A DNA stretch of 64,000 bases from positions 25,758-89,757 of the forward strand of contig WHVA01000469.1 in the NCBI GenBank assembly GCA_015179125.1, given 5' to 3'. A program made the translations under genes and the position numbers. Positions 4,063 through 60,342 of the stretch are shown piece by piece (position 1 is the stretch's first letter; the number at the start of each line of letters is the position of its first letter). The notes beneath the pieces are model-generated. The model was not told the DNA's origin and ran no database searches. It worked only from the letters and a program-made list of their open reading frames with translations. This stretch comes from Gautieria morchelliformis (Eukaryota > Basidiomycota > Agaricomycetes > Gomphales > Gomphaceae).

Positions 4063-5568
4063 ATGCCAATCAACGCAGAGCCCCACCCGCCCGTGGCCGT
4101 GTCAGCACTCAGAACAAGAGCGAGCAGCCAACAGACGAGCACCAAGACCAGAGCTGAGCTGATAGCAGACCCTTATGCGTCAGTACGCACCAAAGAGCAA
4201 GTGAGGGCCTTCCTAGACAAGCAGGGCTTCATAGCCAAGGACGGCCCAGCGACAACAGAACAGCTCAGTTACATCCTCCGCTCCCTCGCCCACAGCTCCA
4301 CGGGCAAAGCGCTTGAGGAGGGTGCCAGATCGGTCGCCATCCTAATGAACAACGAAGCAGCCAGAGGCATAAGTACAGCCGTCATGCAACACGTCGAAAA
4401 GAGCCTAGTGCCCGTACTCAGTAAAGTCGAATCGATCATAGAGGCCACGCGCGAGATCACAGACTCCTCAAAGAACATGACAGACGAGGCCGGTCTGGCG
4501 GTAGAGGAGCTGTGTAGCGTCCAGAGGATAAGGAGCAAGGTGAACAGGGAAAAGGCGACGGAAAACACATACGCGGCAGCGCTCAGAGGTAACGTCCCTC
4601 TATCGCACCCGAGCAACCTGGCCAGAGCAAAGGCCAGGGAGTGTCAAATACTGATAGATAAAGATCCGAGAGCAGAACACAACGCGCTGGGCGACCTCAC
4701 GAAACAAGAGCTGGTAGCCAAAGCGAACCAGGCGCTGGAGCAGCTAGAAGGCATCAACATCAACACCAACATCAGGTTCGTAGGAGCCAAGATCCTGACC
4801 AATGGAGGTCGTGTACGAGCTCAACCCGCCCGCGGCGGCCAAGTGGGTCCAGGCAAACGAGACGCAACTGGCGCACAGGCTCGGCGGCACCTCAGTGATC
4901 AAAGAGCGGGCCGTCGCGGTCCTGGTAGAGTACGTACCGCTGACGCACGCTCCAGAGGCCATGGGGAGCTCAAGAAAATCGAAAGAGACTCCAGGCTACC
5001 CAACGACACGCTGATCTCGACGAGATGGATCAAGCCGGCGAGTCGAAGAACGCAAGGACAGCGCTCGGCCCACATAATAGCTAAGTTCTCATCCATTCAG
5101 GCCGCAAATCAGAGTATATGGGAAGGACTGATAATAGCAGGAAAGCGAACATGGGCCAGAAGAATGAAAAGGGAGCCGAGGAGGTGCCTGAAGTGCCAAG
5201 AGCTCAATGTGAGGCACATGGCAGTGGAGTGCCCGGGCGACGATGTGTGTGGGACGTGCGGAGGGGCACACAACACGGCGGAGTGCGAAGAGATCGACCC
5301 TGCGAAGTACAGATGCGTCAACTGCGACACCAATGGGCATGCATCGTGGGACCGAACATGCCCCAGATTTGTCTCAGCGAGCCAGACCATAGAGAAAGCA
5401 AATCCCGAGGGAACATACAAATATTTCCCCAATGAGCAGCCTTGGACATGGGAGCAGCACGATCACGCAGGGCCCACGACCGACGCGGAGGCCTTCCCAC
5501 ACCAACAAAAGGCCACGCAAGACAAAGACAGGGGCAGAACGCAACAAGCGCAGCCCTACACCGTGTGA
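4063..5568 (+). CDS. LINE-1 ORF1, gag-like RNA-binding protein with three zinc knuckles
   Basis: The 501-codon frame starts at an ATG about 145 bp inside the element. The N-terminal half is helical and charged, probably a coiled coil for self-assembly. Near residues 370-450 lie three knuckles: CLKCQELNVRHMAVEC, CGTCGGAHNTAEC and CVNCDTNGHASWDRTC. They are followed by a Tyr- and Pro-rich YKYFPNEQPWTWE stretch that is typical of fungal LINE ORF1. Such proteins bind the element RNA and form the ribonucleoprotein. Between about 4800 and 4970 the protein makes better sense in another frame (ORF 4802-5014), so two compensating indels have probably replaced about 55 residues with a frameshifted stretch. 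The frame overlaps the start of the poorly defined ORF2 leader. Confidence 0.8.
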   Translation: MPINAEPHPPVAVSALRTRASSQQTSTKTRAELIADPYASVRTKEQVRAFLDKQGFIAKDGPATTEQLSYILRSLAHSSTGKALEEGARSVAILMNNEAARGISTAVMQHVEKSLVPVLSKVESIIEATREITDSSKNMTDEAGLAVEELCSVQRIRSKVNREKATENTYAAALRGNVPLSHPSNLARAKARECQILIDKDPRAEHNALGDLTKQELVAKANQALEQLEGININTNIRFVGAKILTNGGRVRAQPARGGQVGPGKRDATGAQARRHLSDQRAGRRGPGRVRTADARSRGHGELKKIERDSRLPNDTLISTRWIKPASRRTQGQRSAHIIAKFSSIQAANQSIWEGLIIAGKRTWARRMKREPRRCLKCQELNVRHMAVECPGDDVCGTCGGAHNTAECEEIDPAKYRCVNCDTNGHASWDRTCPRFVSASQTIEKANPEGTYKYFPNEQPWTWEQHDHAGPTTDAEAFPHQQKATQDKDRGRTQQAQPYTV

Positions 5569-5764
5569 GGCGGTGAGCGGGAGGCCTCAAGAGCAGGGGA
5601 AGCAGCAGGGGCAGACGAAACACAAACCCAGAGACGGGCCACAGGGATCAGGGGTGGAGCGACAGGAATGCGAGGCAAACGACACTAGACGAGTACGAGC
5701 CCAGGAACCAACCGAGAGAGAACGACCAAAGCCGCCCCCACAGCACACAACCCAGATGAATAGA

Positions 5765-8700
5765 GACAACAGAACACGAACAAATCCCTAACAGCCACCG
5801 TGGACCTACTAGCCACCGCCACGCCCGACAAATACGACTTCATTGCCATACAGGAGCCTTATATAGACTTCCTAGGAAACGCCAGAGTGACGCCCCACTG
5901 GTACACAGTATACCCCAAAACCCACTACGTAGACCGGCAGAAAAGGTCGAGAGCAACAATCCTAGTCAACACAAGAATAGCCACCAACTCCTGGAACGCG
6001 ATAGACGTCGGGACGCCAGACGCCACAGCCATCAGGGTTAATACCAATGCCGGACACATCCTCATCATCAATATCTACTGCGATTGCAACCACTCTGATG
6101 GCCTCAGCGCGATCAAAACATTCATACAGAAGTACCACAATGAGAGAGGGGTCAGGGACGATGACCTAGGAATGGTATCTCTCGGCGACTTCAACCGACA
6201 CCACCGAACTGGGACGAGGAGCGCAACAATCAACTTTTCACGAGGCATAACCTAGACCAAGCACAAACACTCATAGACGCGACGGTGGACTGGGACGTAC
6301 AAATGGCGCTCCCAAGAGGCATGCCGACGCTCAGAGCAATGTCAATGGGGAACAACACATGCGCCGATAACGTTTTCTTATCTTCAGAGCTGATAGAAAG
6401 ACTGACCGCTGCTACACAGTGCCAGAGGAGCAACCCGCGAAAAGCGACCACTACCCAATCGACACCACTCTCGAGCTCTCAACCACGGACGCCGACGCAA
6501 CAACGAGGTGCAACTATAGACAAGTAGACTGGAAGGAATTCAGAGAGAGGTTGGAGACGCGGCTCAGGGACACGGTCCCGGAGGCAAACCCTATAGACAA
6601 GCGACACTTTCACTCGAACCTAAAAGTGATCACTGACTGCATAGCGACCACCATAGACAAGCTGGTGCCTATCACGAGGCCTTCACCCTTCATGAAAGGA
6701 TGGTGGTCAAGGGAGCTGACCCAGATGAGGAAAGAGACGAGGCGGCTAGGCAGGAAAGCCTATAGGCAGAGGCAAGACCCAGACCACAGGGCGCATCAAG
6801 AGTACAAGGAGGCTCACAACAGGTACGCGGGGGTGATAGAAAAGTCCAAAAAGGAACACTGGGAGGACTTCCTCGAAAGAACAAACCAGACACAGTATGG
6901 ACCGCCCACAAGTTCGCCTCATCGGACCCGTCGGACGGAGGGCGCACAAGGATACCGACGCTTACCACCAAACGCGGTGACGGTACCACGTGGGTCGCCG
7001 ACACAAACGAACACAAAGCACAGATGCTCTTTGCAACGTTCTTCCCAGAAGCGACCACGACCCGACGGCAGCCTCAGATGAACACGAGTACCCGCCAGCA
7101 GCCTTTAAGTACGAGGGCATACCGGACAGCCAAATAAGAAGGACAGTGGAGAGGCTCAACTCCTTCAAAGCGCCAGGCGCCAACGGTATGCCCAACTCAA
7201 TACTGAAGCAATGCATTAACGTCCTTTTGCCCTTTATAGGCCCCTGTTCCGAGCGACGTTCAAGCTGAAAGTATATCCACCCGAGTGGAGGGACTCAGTC
7301 ACGAAGGTACTGAGATAACCCGGCAAGAAAGACTGCACAATACCCGGAGCCTATAGACCCATCGCACTACTCGATACACTGGGAAAAGTCCTGTCCGCGT
7401 GCGTCGCAGAAGACTTGGTCATGATGACAGAAAGATACGTGCTGCTGCCAGATAACCACTTCGGCTGTCGACCAGGGAGGACTACCACTGACGCAATGCA
7501 CTATGTGACAGGAGCCACAAAGACGCATGGAGAAGGGGAAAAGTAATGGGCCTACTGTTCCTGGACATAAAAGGGGCTTTCCCCAGCATCATCCTCTCAC
7601 AGCTCATACACAACATGCGTCAGCGAGGAATCCCAAAGGAGTACACAGAATGGATTGAGAGAAAAGTCGGGGGAAGGCTCACAACGATGCAACTAGACGA
7701 CTACAGCACCCCCTCGATGGAGATAGGGTGCGGCATGGACCAAGGATGCCCCCTATCTGCGATTGGTTACCAGTTTTACAACGCGGATCTACTCGAAGTC
7801 GTCAAAAGGAAGAGCGGAGAAGACTGCGTTGGCTTCGTCGACGACACAACGATTATGGCCGAAGGGGCCAACCTGGAAGAGGCGTTCTCAAAGCTCACAA
7901 ATATAATGACCAGGCCCGGGGGCGCACAGGACTGGGCAAGAAAACACCAGTGCACCTTCACGATAGACAAGTTCGGGCTCATGGGCCTAACCAGACGCCG
8001 GGAAGCAGACCCTGATAGAGCCAGGAGAACCAGACCCGTCACCAGGCCCACAATAACGATCGACCAACACGCCATCCAGCCGACACCGTCTCACAAATTC
8101 CTCAGGGTAATAGTCGACCAAGAACTTCACTTCAAAGAGCAAGTCAATCACGCACTACAGAAGTGAAGCACGTTCATAGAGCAATACCAAAGACTAGCAA
8201 AACCGTCCAGAGGAGTACCAGCTAAGCACATGCGCCAGTACTACCTAGCGGTAGCAGTACCGAAACTTCTATATGCCGCTGATGTTTTCCTCATCCCAGC
8301 TTCGGAAGGGAAGAAAGGAACGAAGGGGCACATCAACAAGTTAGCGAGGGTACAGAGACAGGCAGCGCTAGTGATCACCGGGGTGATGAGAACAACGGTG
8401 AGTGACACGCTTGACGCTCACGCCAACTTACTGCCGTTCCCGCTACTCGTAGATAAGCTCATCCACAAGGCCGCCACAAGATTATCCTGCCTCCCTGAGA
8501 GGCATCCCTTGTCCCCGCAAGTAAACCGCGCCGCCTCGAGATACATCAGAAGACACCGCACGCAGATGCACAAGATCCTGCACACGTACAACCTCGAGCC
8601 GAACAGAATGGAGAAATTAAACATGGTGATGAGAGGGCCCAAGTGGGACTTGGCCTTCCGAATCCAGATACCTACAGATGAAATGAAAGCCATAGCGGAG

Positions 8701-17109: not shown

Positions 17110-17385
17110 ACTGTACACGGACATTGATAGTGGTATAGAGAGCCTGGTCGGATTGTCCCATTTGTAAGTGCATACCCTGCCAGTGAGCCGAAGATTCTGG
17201 GTTGCCGCGTCAGACCCCACGTTCTTAGTCACCTGATTGTACATCATGCTATAAATGGCGATTTTCGTCTTTCACGATCGACATGATCGACATGTTCGAT
17301 CTCACTCTGGCAGAAAGCTGTCATCCTGACACAGCCACGTGGGTCTAAATAGAGTAGCGAAGAAGATCGTTGCGGGCGCTAAGCA
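17110..17385. repeat. Dispersed repeat D, uninterrupted copy
   Basis: The left half (GTGGTATAGAGAGCCTGG... to the run CGTCAGACCCC) recurs at 30,508-30,600. The right half (GATTGTACATCATGCTATAA... to GGGCGCTAAGCA) recurs at 36,765-36,885. Here the two halves are joined with only a small spacer, so this copy resembles the pre-insertion site of the KDZ transposon. The ATAAATGG string could be a promoter relic; no gene is assigned. Confidence 0.7.
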
Positions 17386-18248: not shown

Positions 18249-19870
18249 TTATGCGAGTCGCTTGATTTCCGACACTGTTCCGGGGCGGAAGTCGGAAATT
18301 GGAGTGGAACTGGCAAGGCGAACGGAACTGGTGGAAGTTCTCCCAGAAGCGGAATCGTTCCCGAAAGCGGATGCGGAGATGGAATCGGAACTGGAAGCGG
18401 AGTCGGAAATGGAGTCGGAACTGGGTGTGGTGTCGGAACTGGAAATGGAAAACAGGGTGTCCCTGACAATACCCTTGCCTTTGCCTTTCCCAGGTTCGCT
18501 AGCGGTGTCCTTGAGGCGCTCCGTCATTTCGTTCTGCAGGGCTACCAAGGCCACGTGCTGTGATTCGATGACTCTCGCTAGGTCGGAAAGGCGAGTTGAG
18601 ATGCGGGACGATGAACTGCTTTCGTCGTAGTCACGGGGGGATTTGCGGTGGGAAGGGGGCGCGTGGTTTTTATAAACGTGCGGTTTGTACCACCCCTTGT
18701 TCCTGCCGCGTGTCAAGATTGGTTTTTAGGCGTTAATATTGTGTATTAGTGAACACAGCGAATGCCCGAATAACTTGTGCGAATATGCCGTTCGGCGAAT
18801 AAGTGAACCGATGAATGTTCACGAAACAAGAGGGCTGCCCGAACGGGGCTCGCCCAATCTACAGTCGTAGCGAAATAGCTCGCGACACTTGACAACGTAA
18901 CGTGCAAGGTGTCACGGAAGGGCTGTCTAAGTTTCGACGGTCCCTTCGCTGGCGAAGGTGCTCCTTTGGAGCCCTCCGCCAACAGCACAGAAAGTAGTTC
19001 GAAGACTAAGGTAACAAAGATGAAGTATGAGAACTCACCAGTGATGCCGAAGTCCTTTTCTGGTCGAAGATAGGAATCTTCAAAGGGAGGCTCAAGACGA
19101 TGATCACAGCGAGGTCAAGTTTGCACAAGATGGACGACGTATGATAATTGAACTGGGGAATGTACATGCGAATGTAAACTACTTATACCGAATGCTCGTA
19201 AGGTATCAGCAAATAGGAAAGAGGCCGTCACGAATCAGGGTTGGATAGGGGTGTGCAGTCATGATACTAAGCAGATGGAATAAACATACAATAGAGTGAG
19301 GGAGGAGTGCGAACATGAAACAACGGAGAGTAAAGGTGGCGAAGGTACTTATGTATGAAACCATGTCTTGGGACCCGCATACATGTCACCCTGCACGGAC
19401 TCTTCGTCCACTGGGTTGATCCCATGCAGTCGGTGGAAGGAATGCCCCACGAACATGCTTTTGGCCATACGAAAACCCAAAGGGGTTGGATTAAGAAGAT
19501 GATGGGGTTAGTGATGAATCATCATGCCGGGTAAATGGTATCGATCATATTTGATGGCGTGCCTGTTGGCGAAATGTGCGAGCAGCGAATGGCGGTTTCA
19601 GAGAATGGGGCGAACAGCGAACAGGGCCGATGTAGAGGGTGAGTGGTCGAAGGGTGCGGCGAACTCTGGCGAAGGTGCTAGGGAGTGACGAGGGGGAACA
19701 CAGCGGCAGTAGGGTAAGGAAAATAGTCAGGTCATGACACCACGCCAACCTCCTTGCCCTCCTCGGCCACCTCTGTAGGTCTTTGCGCTGCCATGGCTAT
19801 TTCCACGATCGAAGTCACCTATTTTCTGCATCAGCACCATGTTATCGTCCATTGACATCAAGCCGGTGGC
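18249..19870 (-). pseudogene. Gypsy-B ORF3: RGG-rich, coiled-coil protein after pol (split by LTR-A)
   Basis: The frame opens at an ATG whose A is the last base of the pol stop (TGATG, about 19,858). It encodes GDFDRGNSHGSAKTYRGG and GGQGGWRG, is interrupted by LTR-A, and continues at 18,710 with TRGRNKGWYKPHVYKNH, a helical segment (STRLSDLARVIESQHVALVA), and a long Ser/Asp tail made by TTCCGAC-type microrepeats, ending at 18,249. RGG boxes generally bind RNA, so a nucleocapsid-like or post-transcriptional role is an inference. Canonical gypsy elements end with integrase, so the extra ORF is unusual. The overlapping stop-start could allow termination-reinitiation. I know no named family for it. 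Confidence 0.5.
18711..19739 (-). mobile_element. LTR-A copy 2 (solo LTR) in gypsy-B ORF3
   Basis: Full-length 1029 bp, TGTCAAGATTGG to GTCATGACA. The flanks CCGCG and CCACG differ by one base and fit a 5-bp target duplication. Coding sense of ORF3 continues from one side to the other, so this is an insertion and not the terminal LTR of gypsy-B. Confidence 0.85.
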
Positions 19871-30600: not shown

Positions 30601-30608
30601 CGCACTCT

Positions 30609-30653
30609 CAAAATTACGGCGCTGCGGGGAAAACCGCCATGGCCGCCATGGCC
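30609..30653 (+). repeat. Left terminal inverted repeat of the KDZ transposon
   Basis: It begins CAAAATTACGGCGCTGCGGG and continues through GCCATGGCCG. Aligned with the reverse complement of 36,714-36,756 it is roughly 80-85% identical, and both ends give 6 bases between the target duplication and TACGGCG. Confidence 0.8.
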
Positions 30654-30745
30654 ATCACGTGAGTTTCGGAATTGCCCGCCGCCCATAACCCACAGGACAT
30701 CATAATTGACTACCGTTTTACATCACGTGAGGGGCACGTGCCGGC
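30654..30745. promoter_or_regulatory. Subterminal CACGTG motifs
   Basis: CACGTG occurs near 30,656, 30,724 and 30,735, twice in the longer form CATCACGTGAG. Repeated subterminal motifs often serve as transposase binding sites; CACGTG is also a bHLH site. Function is inferred only. Confidence 0.4.
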
Positions 30746-30991
30746 CAACGCGTCAACGCGTACATCATTCCTCATCTGCGGCGATGCCGTACAACTGCGT
30801 CAGGTCTCATTATCTGTGTATCTAATCACCGCCAATATATATTATTAATTGTTCCAATGAGGCGTACATGTGTAGTGGTGCATGTTTCCGGAAAGTCCGC
30901 CGAATACCCACTTAAAAGCTGAAGCTACACTCCCATATCCTCCAGCGCACTTGCTACAGCTTTCCTTTCCCACTAGCCCTTGACTTAACAA

Positions 30992-33900
30992 ATGCTTGCC
31001 ATGATCTGTATACACTACGCTTCGCTAAAACGTCACCTCCGACCGGCCTGCTTTCCTCCACCTTGTCACCTTATGTCACCCTTTTATTTCCTCTTCCCGC
31101 TGTCACTTTCCTTCACTCTTTCAATATCTAACCTATTTTCTTCTCATATCGTGAATGTGGGGCAACCAAACCATCCTTTGCCAATCCGAGTCCAAAGGTG
31201 TGCTGTGTGTAGCCATGCTGTTAGGGAATTTGTAGCGTGCAAGGGATTGGGGACAGCGGCGAATAGAGGAAGGGTGATGCAACAAGTGAGTATTTCAAGT
31301 TCTTTCAAGCCCTGTGTTGTATCTCACCTTTTTTCCAGTGTTCAAACAAGACATGCAATGCCACAATATTCCACACTGCAGCATTTGAGAGCTATGAACA
31401 GGCCGTTCAACAAGCCGAACATTATAATGCTTTCGCACCGTGCGCTCAAGCTGCCCCAGTGGGCCCAGTTCAACCTTTCTATCTTCCGGAGCCTGGTCTC
31501 GTTCCGGCTCTTGCAGCCCCCATTCCGGCTCCTGCCCAGCTGCCTCCCGCCCCCTTTCCACTACCACACCCTTCAGCAGTGCCTGTTTTGCAGCATCCCA
31601 AAGGATCATTTAGTTGTGCTGGATTCTGGTGCTTGCTAAAGAAAAACGGCAAACCTTCGAGAGGTGCCCAGAATTGTATTTTCAGGAGATGCGCTGGATG
31701 TTGCGGGAAGGAATTCGAGACTGCAGAAAAACAGAAACAGAAGCGAGCCGAATGTCCTACTCACAACAAACGCTCAGCCCAGTGGACTGCACCAGTTACC
31801 GTTCTCGCTACTCAACCCCTTGACCCAGCTCTCAACTCGAGTATTCCCACTGCATCCAACTCTACTGCATCGGGTAACAAGCCAGATACAGTCCATGTTA
31901 GACCATATGCTGTTGGTCCCATGTGGAATGCAGAAGCTAGGGCCGCTCATGAGGCTGCAGCAATCGCACAGCAGCGGAAGGTTGAAAACTGTCTCCTCAA
32001 AATGGCTCCGCATCGCACAATCAGGCTTTTTATATGGCATGCGGTAATTTTGCATATCTTTTGTATCGATAACTGTACTGATAATTTATGTAATCTAGGA
32101 AAATGATCTGCCGAAATGTTTCCCAGTTGTTGTGGACTCCTACCCTGATTTTTCACTCTCCATGGCCACACATGCCGTCTCATTTCTTAATATCAGCCCC
32201 ACCGATACATTCGAGGCATGGAATCATCAACATGGCTATTGGGAACTGCACTCCTTGTCAACACATCGTCATGTAACTGAGAATCAATGCCTGCTCTACA
32301 AGCTTATTCGCAATGCTAGCTCATCTCTCGAGGATGGCAAATGTGTCGGATTGGCAGAAGAACTCGCAATGCAACCTGTGCTTGGAAAGCGCACGCGACC
32401 GACTGAACAAGTCGTATTGCCTGTTTCTAAAGGCCTGCCATTCAACCTCATAGAGAGCTCAGCCCCCACTGTGTCTTCCCAGCATTCTCCATCCATATCC
32501 GTGGCCTCGACCTCTCCGATCATATACAAACCAACGAGCCGTTCAGTTTCTCCCGATTTTCTTCTTCCCCCTAAGCGCCAGCGCAACACACTGCCCGATG
32601 AACATGCCAACGCTGAACCCAAGGGTAAAGGGAAGTGGAGAGTAACTAAGAAGTTCCGAGTCTGGCCCACGAACTTCTATGTTTCCGAGGTCGCGGCCGG
32701 CTTCAATTTCATTCGGAAGGGACGCCAACAGGGCCGCACAACTATCGCATCACTATTCAAGGAGTTCTATGGACAAGACATTGTTCCCTCTACATTTAAA
32801 TCAAACCGCAAATACTGGCAGGAAGACTTTAGCGACGATCTCAAACAATGCTTTGTATCCTATGGAGAGACACCACGTGGCCTGTGGACACACTTTCTGG
32901 CAACATATCGTAGTTCAGGTGTGGAGCCCCCACTCAAATTGACACTCGAGGATGAATCGGACGTGATGTTGGACATGTCCACTGATATCGCTTCTGACAC
33001 ATCGGATGGAAAAACTGACCGTCAATGTGTCTTCTGCTTCCTACCTCTCCCTCAGATCCTTTCCCAGCCACTTCAGGTGCTTCTTGACGAGGTCCTGCTT
33101 CCCAAGAACAGCTATGTGGCCCCAACCCAGGAGAATCCATTGGCTCGCAAGCATCGCCCAGGAAGGGGCTGGACGTTACGCTTGGCATTTTGCGGTATGC
33201 ATATGCAGGAGGTGGATGTTACTTTGGAAGGTAATGGTCAGAACTGGCCCGTTCCTGCAGATATTGAATACGAGATACTCGGGGCTCGGATTAAATCTCT
33301 GGAGAAAGAGATTACACAAGCAGTTGTGGCTCCTAAATGCAACCTACTCTTCCGTCGAGCAATCTGTCAAATGGTCAAACATGGTATGAAATCTTTTGTG
33401 AGTTTAGACGGCATTCGCAAGCGTATGGAGTGGGAGCATGCAGGCTAGTCAGTGGTTTCACCTCTTCATGTCATGTTGCGTAAACTGATGAAGCTATAGT
33501 TACGGTGACAAGGGGACGATTCTTATTAACGAGAACCTTCTCAGCCTCTTTCCGGAGCATCCCAACACAGACAAAGATGAACGGCTGGACAAACTTCTTG
33601 ATGCCCTCTTCGATGAGCCGAATGCCCAGGTGCCGAAGTTACCTTCTAGTAGAAAACTAGAAAATCACCCTGGCACAATCTTTATTGACCCTATAACAAT
33701 CCATCCTCTGAGCTACACCAATTTCCTAACCTGTGTCTTGATCCCTTTCACCGCCATTCTTCTAATTCAAGCCGACCGATCTTGTGCATTCGACGAGGCT
33801 TGGAAGACATGGCATGACAGTGGTCCCTGGGGTTCACACCACTCTTTCGATGAGGATTCCGAGGCTTCTGAAAGAACGATGGAGGCCGTTGTCAAACCAG

Positions 33901-34004
33901 AACCTGTCAAAGATCGCATGCCTACCCCACTTTATGACGGTTGGCATGAGGTAGTTAGCATAGATGAGGAGGGAAATCCTACGGAGACCTTAATCATTGA
34001 TTAG
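30992..34004 (+). CDS. Cysteine-cluster and RTC4-like domain protein carried by the KDZ transposon
   Basis: Four exons (30,992-31,285; 31,339-32,043; 32,099-33,447; 33,500-34,004) with GT-AG introns of 53, 55 and 52 nt join in frame to 950 codons plus stop. The start ATG is the least certain part; a start further inside exon 1 is possible. Residues about 70-110 carry paired cysteines across the first intron (CAVCSH, then CSNKTC), and a second set lies near 215-245 (CIFRRCAGCCG). The middle is Ser/Pro-rich, with a basic stretch before FRVWPTNFYVSEVAAGF. From about 641 to 905 the pattern fits the RTC4-like domain: CVFC at its start, a Cys-His pair CGMH, NWPVPADI, AGYYGDKG across the last intron, and HPLSYTNFLTCVLIPF. 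RTC4 is named from a yeast telomere-capping modifier; its biochemistry is unclear. An acidic tail ends the protein. Confidence 0.78.
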
Positions 34005-34203
34005 GTAGTATCCCGCTCTTCTTCTTTTTGACCACACATGTGCCACATTTTCGTTTTTTTTCTTTTTTTTTCATTGACTCAATGTCTGTCGTGTATGCAT
34101 GTTAACCAATACTCTTGTTGCCTGTACAAGAAAATATGCAAAACTATACTAAATTCAACAGTGCACATAGCATAGCTATCTCCTAGTAATTCGTCACAAG
34201 CTA
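34005..34203. terminator. Shared 3' region between the convergent KDZ-element genes
   Basis: The 199 bp between the two stop codons hold T-rich runs on the plus strand (about 34,050-34,075) and AATAAA-poor, AT-rich sequence for both transcripts. Transcripts probably end or overlap here. No coding frame lies between them. Confidence 0.4.
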
Positions 34204-36463
34204 TCAATGTCCTAGTAAGTCGTCACGAGGAATAGAGTATGGCACGTGATATGATGCCTTCAACTGGGAAATGATAACCCGGTTACGTCGCATTATCATC
34301 TCGTCTGGAAAAAAATTAAATCTAATGCATTCATTAGCTACTGCTTGCATGGACAACAACAGTGAATGACCTATCCTGACGCATGAGGCGGGTGATAGCA
34401 TGGTATCCCCCAAACCAGAGATTGACTTGTTCGGCAGCTGATGAATTAAATGTCCACCGACCTGTCTTTTCATCCAGGAGCTCAGGCCACCATGCAGGGT
34501 TGCAGTATCGACCGCAGAATGCATCTGACTCCTTATGCTTGCATTTGTAATGAAACACGTCCACGGGCATCGCTATGTTTTCAAAGTATGTGTCGTTATC
34601 TTTGAATAGCATAGCGGCCATACGACAATTATTGTCGTACCACATGACCGACGGCAGAGACTGTTTGGTGGGAAATAAAGTCTTCCAGAAACCCTGGGTA
34701 ATGATTAGAAGTTCCTTAATACACGAGTGAAGCTAAGACCTACACGGACACTGTTTGGCCCTTCCGCCCCATAGAACGTCGCTCGTCCTAAGATCACGCC
34801 ACATGAAGCTACGCAAAGCTGCTCATTGTGGGTTCGATGGCGTCCAAATCTGGCAAACACCTTCCAGAGCCCTGCATCAGGCTTGTCATCACATGGGTTG
34901 ATGATCTCGCCATCCGCACCTATGAGAATTGGATCAGGTGACAATTCCCTGTCCTGCACCTGTGGCGCTGCATCGGCATCTGCTGCATGAAGGGCTTCTA
35001 TACCCATGGACTTATTTGTCTTCGCCATACGTTCCTTCAGTTGAAAGATAGCCTTTCCTTGTTCAAGAAAGTGCGTTTCTGCTGCGCGATGTGTTGCAAT
35101 CGAACATGTTCGAAAAGATTCCTCTGCTGGATCGCTGCATGCATCGGCAGCACATTTGTTCTTATGGCTTGTGTGCAGGGAGCAATATCGATCCTTATTA
35201 CTCTCGAGTTCCTCCTTGCAATCATGGATGCCACAGCAAGGGTGGCCAAGGCTGACGCCATCGGTTACGACCGATCTCATAGCTCCGGTAATGTTTCCAT
35301 CTGCGTCCTTGATGTGCTTCACACAGAGGTTACATGCATGATTCCATGCAGGCTGTCCGGTACCTGCCATGGCAAGGTTTCGAGCCGTGATGGTGGCATG
35401 CCATCGTGCAGACTGAGAGGGTGCTTTGTGGGGAACTTGCAGTGACGTCTTGTGCTCGCTGTGCCATGTAAGGAGCGCGTGGATGGTGAACGCTTCGCCA
35501 ACGAGCTCGTAGTTGATGTTGAAAGAAATGGGCCAATCTGGGGGTAGTGCTACAGCTGACGGTAGCGAAGCGGATTCCTCGTTGTATATTCGTGCACAGT
35601 TCAATGATGAAGTCCTGTAATAAATAAGCACAATAATACTGCAGATGAGTGTGCAGATACGTACCAAGCCATGGCCATCTGCATCATGAAACACTCACAA
35701 AGATCCCGTTCAACAAAGAAGTGCGGTGCTACTTGGATTGCGCGTACTGTTGCTGATAGGTCTTCATGCTCATAGTTGTAGTATGCTCTTATATTGCCTT
35801 GAACGAAGCAGTCGGGATGGTAGCGAGTGTTACAACCTAGTGAGGGCAAAAGATGATAAACGTAGAAGTCTTGCCAGTATATATCCTATCCCTCACCTCG
35901 GCAGTACGTGGAGGTCACATTCACAGGAACTGGACCGAACGATTTGGTAAAGCAGGTAGCTTGATGTGTGTTTACCTCACGAAGTTCCGGCGGCTTTCCT
36001 GAAAGCCGCTGATATGAACTATTGGGGCAATGCAGCCTAATACACGTTTGAACCGGAGGTAGGAACTCGTGGATAGCTGTTAAAGTAAGGTAAAGTCACA
36101 GTAATGTAGGCGAGTGATTCATATGCACTTACAGAAATGTACCGGCGTGCCGTGCCTCAGGAAGAGGGTTAAAAGTGAACCCCAATTCCGAGGAGCAATA
36201 TCGGGATGGTTCCACGCAATTTCTCTGAATGCTGTCCAACAGAGATGAGCAGTATAGTCATCTATATCGAGAGCGAGCTGCAGAAAGTCATGCAACGACC
36301 TTGGAAGGCCATCCGGAGCGGCCTCCTGAGTCAACACCTGCGTGAATGCGATCCTTGGTTTCAGGTGGTGTAGAAGGGCAATGTACATTGTTATCTTATC
36401 AATCGCTAGGGATTCCAGCTGGGGATAGAGCCTACAAGCATTCGTGATATCAGTGAGTGACAT
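34204..36463 (-). CDS. KDZ-type transposase with CxC5 and CxC6 cysteine clusters
   Basis: Six exons on the minus strand (36,133-36,463; 35,897-36,076; 35,665-35,836; 34,744-35,614; 34,371-34,693; 34,204-34,321) with introns of 49-60 nt join without a stop to 664 residues. After a helical N-terminus come CxC5-like cysteines (near 118-182: TCIRLHCPN, YCRGCNTRYHPDC), then NCARIY. CxC6 at about 321-410 shows HACNLC, VVTDGVSLGHPCC, then RYCSLH and RTCSIATHR. The catalytic-looking end has WYDNNC, VDVFHYKCKHKESD, GRYCNPA and FNSSAAEQVN. Asp345, Asp538 and Glu606 are my candidates for the RNase H-fold triad. The family is known as KDZ-associated in basidiomycetes. The complete frame suggests recent activity or selection. 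Confidence 0.85.
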
Positions 36464-36756
36464 GGTTACGGTCCAAGGTCGTCAGTGCCACGACTTCAAC
36501 GCGACTTTGACGCGTCTTGGAGAAACATACATGCTTTACACGCACAACGCATAGAAAACTCATGCCAATCGTTATTCCAATCGTTATTCTAATCTATCTA
36601 CACTACTAATCCAGTAATCTATTTTAGCAGCAGTGAGATTTATATATAACTCATGCGCCCACTATGGACTATGTCCACAGTGCACGCCGGTCCCCTGAGG
36701 TCCATTGGTTTGTAATGGCCGGCCATGGCCTTTTTCCCTGTAGCGCCGTATTCCTC
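36464..36756 (-). promoter_or_regulatory. Transposase upstream region and right terminal inverted repeat
   Basis: The right inverted repeat occupies about 36,712-36,756 (reverse complement begins GAGGAATACGGCGCTACAGG). Between it and the transposase ATG at 36,463 lies a TATA-like ATATATAA on the minus strand near 36,645-36,653. The transposase promoter therefore sits beside the terminal repeat. Confidence 0.6.
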
Positions 36757-36764
36757 CGCACTCT

Positions 36765-37017: not shown

Positions 37018-37554
37018 TCAATTTAACCCTGCAGCTTGCGGGCAAGAGTCTGCCTTGGCGCCGAGGTCGCAAGAGCTCTTTCCGTCATTGGCACACTGGT
37101 AGAGGTGTCCATGGATGCAATTGGATAACCCGTCACCGCAGAAAGCAGCGTTTGGAGCTCCGTGGCAGGGGCAGGCAGTGGCGGCACACACGCTCTTTCC
37201 AAGAATTAATACACAGTAATTAGTCATACTTTCCAGCTTGAATGGCAAAACAACATACAGGGCTATCGGACACGCTCTTTCCAAGCTATTAATACACAGT
37301 AATTAGTTGTCCTTTCCAGCTTGAATAGCAAAACAACATACAGGGCTATCGGACACGTTCTTTCCAAGCTATTAATAAACAGTAATTAGTTATCCTTTCC
37401 AGCTTGAATAGCAAAACAACATACAGGACTATCGACTGCCATCGCAAAAGCAGCGGGGAGGATGGCAACAAGAGCAACGAAAGCAGTGTACTAGATAATG
37501 GACGGTGTGAGCTCAAGTGTATATATATGAAATGTTAGACCGACCGACCTTCAT
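37018..37554 (-). CDS. Small secreted cysteine-rich protein (effector-like)
   Basis: On the minus strand exon 1 is only ATGAAG (37,549-37,554). After a 58-nt intron, exon 2 (37,425-37,490) gives a clean signal peptide, MKYTAFVALVAILPAAFAMA. The last exon (37,018-37,194) encodes a secreted domain with eight cysteines (VCAATACPC, AAFCGDGLSNC, LYQC, SSCDLG, DSCPQ). Between them an 82-bp unit is repeated; each repeat contains a possible 27-nt mini-exon (37,342-37,368 and 37,259-37,285; LGKNVSDSP-like), preceded by AATAG and followed by GTATGT. The mature core is about 60 residues. Such proteins in basidiomycetes are secreted during host or substrate interaction; the role here is unknown. The final acceptor is uncertain, because its AATAG has changed to AATTC. 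Confidence 0.65.
37190..37437 (-). repeat. Threefold tandem repeat of 82-83 bp spanning intron and mini-exon
   Basis: The string ACG(C/T)TCTTTCCAAG recurs at 37,190, 37,272 and 37,355, and CAAAACAACATACAG recurs just before each next unit. Identity between units is above 90%. Each unit holds a whole splice module in minus-strand order: donor GTATGT, branch-like CTAATTAC or TATTAAT, acceptor TAG, then 27 nt of coding sequence. Confidence 0.85.
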
Positions 37555-46968: not shown

Positions 46969-47959
46969 TGTCAAGATTGGTTTTTATGCATTAATATCGT
47001 GTATTAGTGAACACAGTGAATGCCCAAATAACTTGTGCGAATAAGTATGCCGTTCGGCGAAGAGGGTGAACCAATAAATGTTTACAAGATAAGAGGGCTG
47101 CCCGAACGGAGCTCGCCCTATCTACAGTCATAGTGAAATAGCTCATGGCACTTGATGATGTAACGTGCAAGGTGCCATAGAAGGGTTGTCTAAGTAGTTC
47201 AACCCCTTCGCCGACAGCACAGAAAATAGCTCAAAGGCTAAGGTAATGAAGATGAAGTATGAGAACTCACCAGTGGTGCCTAAGTCCTCTTCTGGTCGAA
47301 GATAGGAATCTACCGGAGAAGGCTCAAGACGATAGTCACAGTGAGGTCAAGTTTGCACAAGATGGATGTATGATAATTGAGCTAGGGAGTATACATGTGA
47401 ATGTAAACTACTTATATCGAATGCTCATATGGTAACAGCGAATAGGAAAGAGGCCGTCATGAGTCAGGGCTGGATAGGGGTGTGCAGTCATGATACAAAT
47501 TGAGTATACAATAGAACGAAAGAAGGGTGTGAACATGAAACAATGGAGAGGAAAGAGGGCGAAGGCACCTATGTAGAGAAATATGCCTTGGGACCCGCAT
47601 ATACACCACCCTGCACGGACTCTTTGTCTGCTGGGTTGATCCCACATGACCTACGGGTAGGACGTCCCATGAATGCATCACGGCCATATGAATCACCTAA
47701 AGGGGTTGGATCGAGAAGGTGATGGGGTTAGTGATGAACCATCATGCTGGGTAAATGGGATCAATCATATTTGATGGCGTGCCTGCTGGCGAAATGTGCG
47801 AGCTGTGAATACTCGTTCGGAGAATGGGGCAAACAGAAAATGGAGTGAACGTAGAGGAAGAGTGGTCGAAGGGTGGGGCGAACTCAGGCGAAGATGCAGG
47901 GGGAGTGACGAGGGGGAATGTAGAGACAGCGGGGTAATGGAAATAGACAGGTCATGACA
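46969..47959 (-). mobile_element. LTR-A copy 5: 3' LTR of gypsy-C
   Basis: 991 bp with intact termini. It is the only LTR-A that abuts a polypurine tract, which assigns the LTR-A family to gypsy-C. Confidence 0.85.
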
Positions 47960-59311: not shown

Positions 59312-60342
59312 TGTCAAGATTGGTTTTTAGGCATTAATATCGTGTATTAGTGAACACAGCGAATGCCCGAATAACTTGTGCGAATAAGTATGCCGTTCAG
59401 TGAATAAGTGAACCGATGAATGTTCACGAAACAAGAGGGTTGCCCGAATGGGGCTCGCCCTATCTACAGTCGTAGCGAAATAGCTCGCAGCACTTGACGA
59501 CGTAACGTGCAAGATATCGCGGAATGGCTGTCTAAGTTTCGACAGTCCCTTCGCTGGCGAAGGTGCTCCTTCAGAGCCCTTCGCCAACAGCACAGAAAGT
59601 AGTTCGAAGGCTAAGGTAACGAAGATGAAGTATGAGAACTCACCAGCGATGCCTAAGTCCTTGGCTGGTTGAAGATAGAAATCTTCAACGGGAGGCTCAA
59701 GACGATGATCACAGTGAGGTCAAGTTTGCACAAGATGGACGACGTATGATAATTGAACTGGGGAATATACATGCGAAAGGAAACTACTTATATTGAATGC
59801 TCATAAGGTATCAGCAAATAGGAAAGAGGCCGTCACAAGTCAGGGTTGGATAGGGGTGCGCAGTCATGATACTAGGTAGATGGAATAAACATACAATAGA
59901 GTGAGGGGAGAATGCGAACGTGAAACGATGGAGAGTAAAGGGAGCAAAGGCACTTATGGACAAAACCATGTCTTGGGACCCGCATACATGCTACCCTGCA
60001 CGGGCTCTTCGTTTACTGGGTTGATCCCGCACGGCCTATGGAAGAGACGTCCTGCGATCACACTTTGGCCATACGAACACCCAATGGGGTTGGATTAAGA
60101 AGATGATGGGGTTAATGATGAACCATCATTCCGGGTGAATGGTATCGATCATATTCGATGGCGTGCCTGCTGACGAAATGTGCGAGCAGCGAATAGCGGT
60201 TCGGAGAATGGGGCGAACAGCGGATAGAGTGGACGTAGAGGGGAAGTGGTCGGTAGGTGCGGCGAACTCTGGCGAAGATGCTAGGGAGTGACAAGGGGGA
60301 ACATAGAGGTAGCGTGGTAGGAGAAATAAACCGGTCATGACA
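59312..60342 (-). mobile_element. LTR-A copy 8 (solo) in gypsy-D
   Basis: 1031 bp with both termini intact (TGTCAAGATTGG, CCGGTCATGACA). Flanks AGACA and AGACG differ at one base and fit a 5-bp duplication. It is very similar to the right part of copy 1 (9,770-10,320). Confidence 0.88.

Follow-up and report, generated by a model that had tools for sequence, protein, structure and literature searches.

A 6148-bp element in the genome of Gautieria morchelliformis, a truffle-like basidiomycete, is very likely a cut-and-paste DNA transposon in which a CxC5/CxC6 protein is the Asp-Asp-Glu (DDE) transposase and an RTC4-like gene is an accessory; the element would have many copies in Gautieria, and its transposase would occur in many Agaricomycetes. 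It lies in a stretch of 64,000 nucleotides on contig C525 (hereafter, the window) and was compared with the whole 122-Mb genome (1113 contigs). The properties expected of DDE cut-and-paste transposition were found: a target duplication of fixed length at independent sites, paralogous sites that are unoccupied, and a predicted RNase H-like DDE transposase. The initial annotation had proposed a DNA transposon that carries two genes and has readable boundaries, and it is confirmed with respect to the edges, the duplications and both genes. The features of the element in window coordinates are as follows.

30609..36756, plus strand: whole element, 6148 bp, delimited by copy boundaries
30601..30608, plus strand: left target-site duplication CGCACTCT
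30609..30614, plus strand: CA-type outer hexamer CAAAAT, gene-1 side, identical in all six other family copies extending to the terminus
30615..30645, plus strand: left inner terminal inverted repeat (TACGGCGCTGCGGGGAAAAC...)
30636..30643, no strand: 8-bp palindrome GCCATGGC, 27 bp inside the left terminus
31151..31285, plus strand: gene 1 exon 1, counted from the start that other copies conserve
31339..32043, plus strand: gene 1 exon 2, cysteine-rich, with exon edges similar in the related insertions C299 and C320
32099..33447, plus strand: gene 1 exon 3
33500..34004, plus strand: gene 1 exon 4, holding the stop codon and the best-matching part of the RTC4-like domain (PF14474)
34204..34321, minus strand: gene 2 exon 6, with the stop
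34371..34693, minus strand: gene 2 exon 5, with the proposed catalytic Asp538 (34634-34636) and Glu606 (34430-34432)
34744..35614, minus strand: gene 2 exon 4, with CxC6 (residues 344-409) and the proposed catalytic Asp346 (35260-35262)
35665..35836, minus strand: gene 2 exon 3
35897..36076, minus strand: gene 2 exon 2, in which CxC5 (residues 112-240) begins
36133..36463, minus strand: gene 2 exon 1
36720..36750, minus strand: right inner terminal inverted repeat
36722..36729, no strand: 8-bp palindrome GCCATGGC, 27 bp inside the right terminus
36751..36756, minus strand: GAG-type outer hexamer GAGGAA (read inward), gene-2 side
36757..36764, plus strand: right target-site duplication CGCACTCT

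The two flanking copies of CGCACTCT match at all eight positions, as annotated. Among the 7150 exact 8-bp direct repeats of the window with a spacing of 3-9 kb, this pair has the third-best inverted match on its inner side, at 20 of 24 positions. Both higher-ranked pairs belong to other repeats that are present as long inverted copies, and the pair ranked fourth reaches 14. The octamer itself occurs four times on both strands of the window, compared with 1.8 expected. Searches with the two ends scored the best candidates only, so the copy counts are lower bounds. The left-end query retrieved at least seven matches in addition to its own copy, and at least six other copies extend to the terminus, five of six beginning exactly at 30609; the match in C226 begins two bases earlier because the C226 target also ends in CT. 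For the right-end query, nine of 14 other places end exactly at 36756, five are broken off earlier and none extends beyond. The possibility raised with the initial annotation, that the ends of other copies might fall elsewhere, is contradicted by at least five left and at least nine right edges. However, three of the nine exact right-hand stops (C264, C731 and C295) have one flank in common and are therefore not independent; this flank starts GTCCGCTG (L028, L029 and L031), and the element end was apparently amplified there inside another repeat. Element pieces between bases 1 and 6077 in C943 (L030) have the left flank ATTCTTTC, and bases 6071-6148 in C781 (L032) have the right flank ATTCTTTC; the two are probably one insertion split by rearrangement, nested insertion or a contig break.

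Matching inverted repeats had been annotated at both ends, which holds for the inner arms of 31 nt (30615-30645 and 36720-36750; 87% complementary) but not for the outer 6 bp, where CAAAAT and GAGGAA are equal at only two of six positions. The terminal inverted repeat (TIR) is therefore recessed by 6 bp; the outer bases, which lie beside TACGG, are constant between copies and are not duplicated. The palindrome GCCATGGC is located 27 bp inside both termini in the window copy, C255, C332, C226 and C160. C271 has an altered but still palindromic sequence, GCTATAGC, at both ends, and the CA-type end of C299 and C320 (GCCGTGGC) and the GAG-type end of C415 (ACCATGGC) are non-palindromic at that position. 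An intact palindrome at both ends is therefore found in six of nine insertions and is not universal.

These nine both-ended insertions were recognized among 25 element places read (the window, L021-L041 and L051-L053), the remaining places being truncated, rearranged or without an end pair. As anticipated, searching with the paired ends yielded other copies with both genes, coinciding edges and 8-bp duplicates. The duplication is 8 bp long in all nine insertions, with complete identity in seven, 7/8 in C320 and 6/8 in C255 (GCGCTCGG/ACACTCGG); both C255 mismatches are consistent with CpG to CpA changes. In the window family, the duplications of C332 (GAGCAACC) and C226 (TTCCAGCT) match at 8/8. 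C332 (3392 bp) derives from an internal deletion, with bases 1-1403 joined to 4153-6148, and has its own duplication; full-length elements range from 5.1 to 8.7 kb. The full-length copy C226 (L023) contains an insertion of about 0.8 kb within gene 2 (6553-7375), with five bases common to its edges. Three further subfamilies follow the same design, namely an 8-bp duplication, two facing genes, two unlike ends (5'-CAnAAn and 5'-GAG) and TIRs recessed by about 6 bp. Their ends are given reading inward, the gene-1 side first and then the gene-2 side.

C415, 6442 bp: CAAAAA-TACCGCGATGCGGGG and GAGGAA-TACCCAGCTACGGGG; duplication GAAAGGCG, 8/8
C160, 7243 bp: hexamers as in C415 (CAAAAA and GAGGAA), with TACC starts; duplication GGCATGGC, 8/8
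C299, 6536 bp: GAGGAA-TAGGCAGCTGCGGGG and CACAAG-TACGGTGACGCGGGG; duplication GCACCCTA, 8/8
C320, 8727 bp: ends near-identical to C299; duplication GCTCGAGT/GCTCAAGT, 7/8
C271, 5079 bp: CACAAT-TTGCCCCCC and GAGAGT-AAGCCGCC; duplication TATTTTTT, 8/8

C415 aligns with C160, and C299 with C320, from edge to edge in pieces, to within 3 bases. C271 has no second complete copy, and its ends are defined by a single copy and the low-complexity duplication TATTTTTT. One CA-type and one GAG-type end are present in all nine both-ended insertions, and in C299 and C320 the gene block has the opposite orientation with respect to these ends, compared with the other insertions. C748 and C674 were considered as further subfamily ends and rejected; no convincing end pair was found, and the outermost bases of relatives are absent.

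Unoccupied sites were sought among the element loci collected in this analysis. The C226 site, with a single TTCCAGCT, is represented at L030 7437-7835 (96.8%), L030 3478-3874 (81.7%) and L037 6965-7225 (94.8%, query 131-400), and the C320 site, with a single GCTCGAGT, at L032 8348-7938 (93.7%). The unoccupied relatives of the window's own flanks, in L025 (78%) and at 17115-17292 of the window (80%), are weaker because they contain indels at the target, and no unoccupied site was found among these loci for the other six insertions. In place of empty sites in other strains, as proposed for a check, these are paralogous repeats within a single genome.

Gene 2 comprises six exons and, as annotated, an open frame of 664 codons; its last intron was identified via homologues. 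Pfam assigns CxC5 (PF18718, E = 5.9e-30) and CxC6 (PF18721, E = 2.1e-23) to the product, both above the cut-off, with no further Pfam match up to E = 10. Among 8000 candidates scored, 48 proteins are related at E ≤ 0.001, the best being from Ramaria rubella (47% identity); the 47 that carry a species name are all, we presume, from Agaricomycetes. In the predicted structure of a gene 2 homologue, an RNase H fold holds an Asp-Asp-Glu triad; the best alignments of this structure are with transposases, and the triad is conserved among the homologues. This model makes the CxC5/CxC6 protein very probably the transposase and not a companion of KDZ (Kyakuja-Dileera-Zisupton) transposases. The zinc cluster CxC6 would be inserted into the RNase H-like core after the first catalytic strand, and the Pfam CxC6 model would therefore take in the first catalytic Asp. 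The predicted fold and triad resemble those of ISCth4 of the IS256 family and other RNase H-fold transposases; to our knowledge, the prokaryotic ISCth4 has no zinc-cluster insert of the CxC6 kind. No PDB sequence matched the gene 2 family profile up to E = 1, and one scan of viral contigs gave 36 pattern matches, none of which was supported as a transposase relative by tblastn.

Gene 1 encodes an RTC4-like domain (Pfam, E = 1.3e-8), which is also present in the proteins of the C299 and C160 blocks (3/3 members). The annotated frame of 950 codons is open without a stop from 30992, but the conserved start at 31151 leaves 897 codons. The codon at 31151 is ATG in all four other copies that cover the position and GTG in the window copy, where the frame is open upstream to ATGs at 31073 (923 codons) and 30992. 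The 950-codon frame is too long because the conserved ATG is GTG here, and it probably begins in leader sequence. Alignments of gene 1 are split at common residues (71, 304-312 and 755-757) in C299 and C320, the pieces being 40-65% identical to the window protein; the break points of C271 agree partly, at 28-48% identity. Protein searches with gene 1, which needed shared exact words, found Gautieria proteins and one ENA protein (P0053) only. A GRF-like zinc-finger spacing was noted by eye only and is not matched by Pfam up to E = 1, and a structure model of gene 1 (P0050, 15 rows; predicted local distance difference test score 40.9, predicted template modelling score 0.24) was not used.

The linkage of the two genes was assessed after manual grouping of matches into 71 gene-2 loci and 30 gene-1 loci. 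Gene 2 is located within 8 kb at 20 of the 30 gene-1 loci and faces gene 1 in all 20, and the other ten have no partner; C113 is an additional facing pair, detected with the RTC4 model. Two observations weigh against a transposon that regularly carries both genes: 51 of the 71 gene-2 loci (C113 included), some of them fragments, lack a gene-1 match in the surrounding 8 kb, and in the C547 copy the catalytic region is still open and no gene-1 partner was detected. Beside this CxC6 transposase copy in C547 (L051) is a satellite-like array (340-2220) that is open across hundreds of codons in three frames.

Decay of the copies was measured with codons containing gaps skipped. Neither gene model is interrupted by a stop in the window copy; C255 has two stops in each, C226 has one in gene 1 and four in gene 2, C153 has three in gene 1, and C332 has none in its remaining sequence. 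The ratio of non-synonymous to synonymous divergence (dN/dS) from the window copy is 0.47-0.58 for C255 and C226, 0.51 for gene 1 of C153, and 0.14 (gene 1) and 0.62 (gene 2) for the remaining sequence of C332. CpG transitions account for 102 of 205 differences to the window copy in C255, 109/189 in C226, 28/63 in C332 and 77/211 in C153, a load such as would be expected of methylated repeats.

The initial annotation had further assigned the element to the KDZ class, which is not shown. A true KDZ element with a catalytic domain too diverged for the Pfam model to recognize is a serious possibility, if somewhat short of probable. Pfam describes CxC5/CxC6 as “associated with KDZ transposases,” duplications of 8 bp are also made by Zisupton and the Dileera-type Zisupton-1_PGr (PMC12730594), and in hhalign the C-terminal motifs follow one another as they do in KDZ. 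However, the CxC5/CxC6 profile, compared with only six KDZ sequences, gives no significant match (probability 1.6%; 0.5-0.9% for the C-terminal halves), a result with which a distant relation is compatible, and the KDZ domain (PF18758) was not matched up to E = 10 in the gene 2 protein and five homologues, in a search whose HMMER filters drop most weak matches. The genome contains 91 matches to PF18758 and 85 to CxC6 (83 above the cut-off); the listed matches share five contigs, on which the nearest distances are 47, 47, 47, 96 and 148 kb, and thus never come closer than 47 kb. Moreover, in the relevant passages of PMC7641404, the intact KDZ genes of Pleurotus follow CxC2 and in no case CxC5/CxC6.

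KDZ elements that carry CxC1 and are mobile, with duplications of 8 bp or of 4-8 bp, have been described (PMC12810828), as has CxC7 in fish (PMC12062965). Zisupton and KDZ transposons share with the Gautieria element the 8-bp duplication, fungal hosts and, in some cases, an extra gene (TET/JBP), and those of Cryptococcus also have a zinc-cluster transposase and TIRs (PMC12730594, PMC12810828). By contrast, the Gautieria element has no detectable PF18758, CxC5/CxC6 instead of the CxC1 (Cryptococcus) or CxC2 (Pleurotus) of KDZ genes, an RTC4-like second gene instead of TET/JBP and an inner TIR recessed by 6 bp behind unlike outer hexamers. The Kyakuja families described have 7-bp duplications, 5'-CA..TG-3' ends and no TIRs (PMC12730594); one Gautieria end likewise starts 5'-CA, but the duplication is 8 bp, the ends are 5'-CA..CTC-3' and a TIR is present, which does not agree with Kyakuja. 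The TAYGG of IS3EU TIRs is similar to the inner TACGG, whereas IS3EU has 6-bp duplications and ends in TAYGG (PMC12730594), and the Gautieria element has 8-bp duplications and six constant, unduplicated bases outside TACGG. The main text of PMC12730594 does not mention RTC4, CxC5 or CxC6, and no description of this element type was found in searches that covered open PMC papers only; one may exist in Repbase.

That CxC5/CxC6 is a mere companion protein, the element being moved in trans by a different transposase, appears quite unlikely; it accords with the current Pfam naming and with the Copia link drawn by the Pleurotus authors (PMC7641404), whereas the RNase H-like model and the conserved triad, together with the lack of any other known transposase domain in either gene by Pfam, argue against it. 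Two host genes in conserved synteny with repeats flanking them by chance, for which the presence of introns is the sole point, can be dismissed as extremely improbable in view of the copies at unrelated sites with common exact edges and differing 8-bp duplications, and of the unoccupied sites.

If the CxC5/CxC6 protein is the transposase of this element, it would recognize both unlike ends, each consisting of the inner inverted repeat, the palindrome and the outer CAnAAn or GAG hexamer. Cleavage would occur at the outer edge of the element, followed by joining to a target with an 8-bp stagger, and fill-in by the host would yield the 8-bp duplication. The facing RTC4-like, cysteine-rich gene travels along and would encode an accessory protein, most likely one that binds DNA or chromatin.

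Other repeats are present in the window. Three tandem copies of an 83-bp unit are located at 37205-37453, about 450 bp past the right end of the element. Approximately ten full or partial copies of a repeat of about 1.03 kb, which begins TGTCAAGATTGG and ends GGTCATGACA, are scattered over 3553-60343 (for example, 18711-19739, 59312-60342, 46969-47959 and, on the minus strand, 49394-48487). In the two copies inspected, at 18711 and 59312, the flanking bases are alike at four of five positions; these repeats are probably solo long terminal repeats.

In sporeless Pleurotus ostreatus, poMSH4 is disrupted by an insert of 6,792 bp that contains a CxC5/CxC6 open reading frame of 739 aa, and a Copia element was considered possibly involved (PMC7641404), an account repeated in PMC12568894. 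The insert lies within the size range of the Gautieria elements, carries one CxC5/CxC6 gene, has several copies and has no KDZ gene within the expected distance (PMC7641404). On the other hand, the main text of PMC7641404 contains no terms for inverted repeats or target sites, its relevant passages mention no second gene, and the link drawn by its authors is to a Copia retrotransposon. As a prediction from the published description, the poMSH4 insert may be an insertion of the CxC5/CxC6 lineage. We tentatively propose, as a wider hypothesis that may well hold but that we would not call probable, that CxC5/CxC6 proteins are transposases of a DNA transposon lineage separate from KDZ, whose elements need two unlike ends, usually have an RTC4-like partner and carry a gene block that can flip, and whose insertions include spontaneous mutations such as that of the sporeless poMSH4 strain.

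CxC5/CxC6 genes are present in many mushroom genomes (at least 48 proteins), and their Pfam name makes them companions of KDZ. If they are transposases with known ends, a large class of repeats would become classifiable and searchable by its DNA pattern, and a commercially used mutation that its authors tie to a retrotransposon would have a concrete, testable cause. The unlike, recessed ends also raise the mechanistic question of how one transposase distinguishes between two ends.
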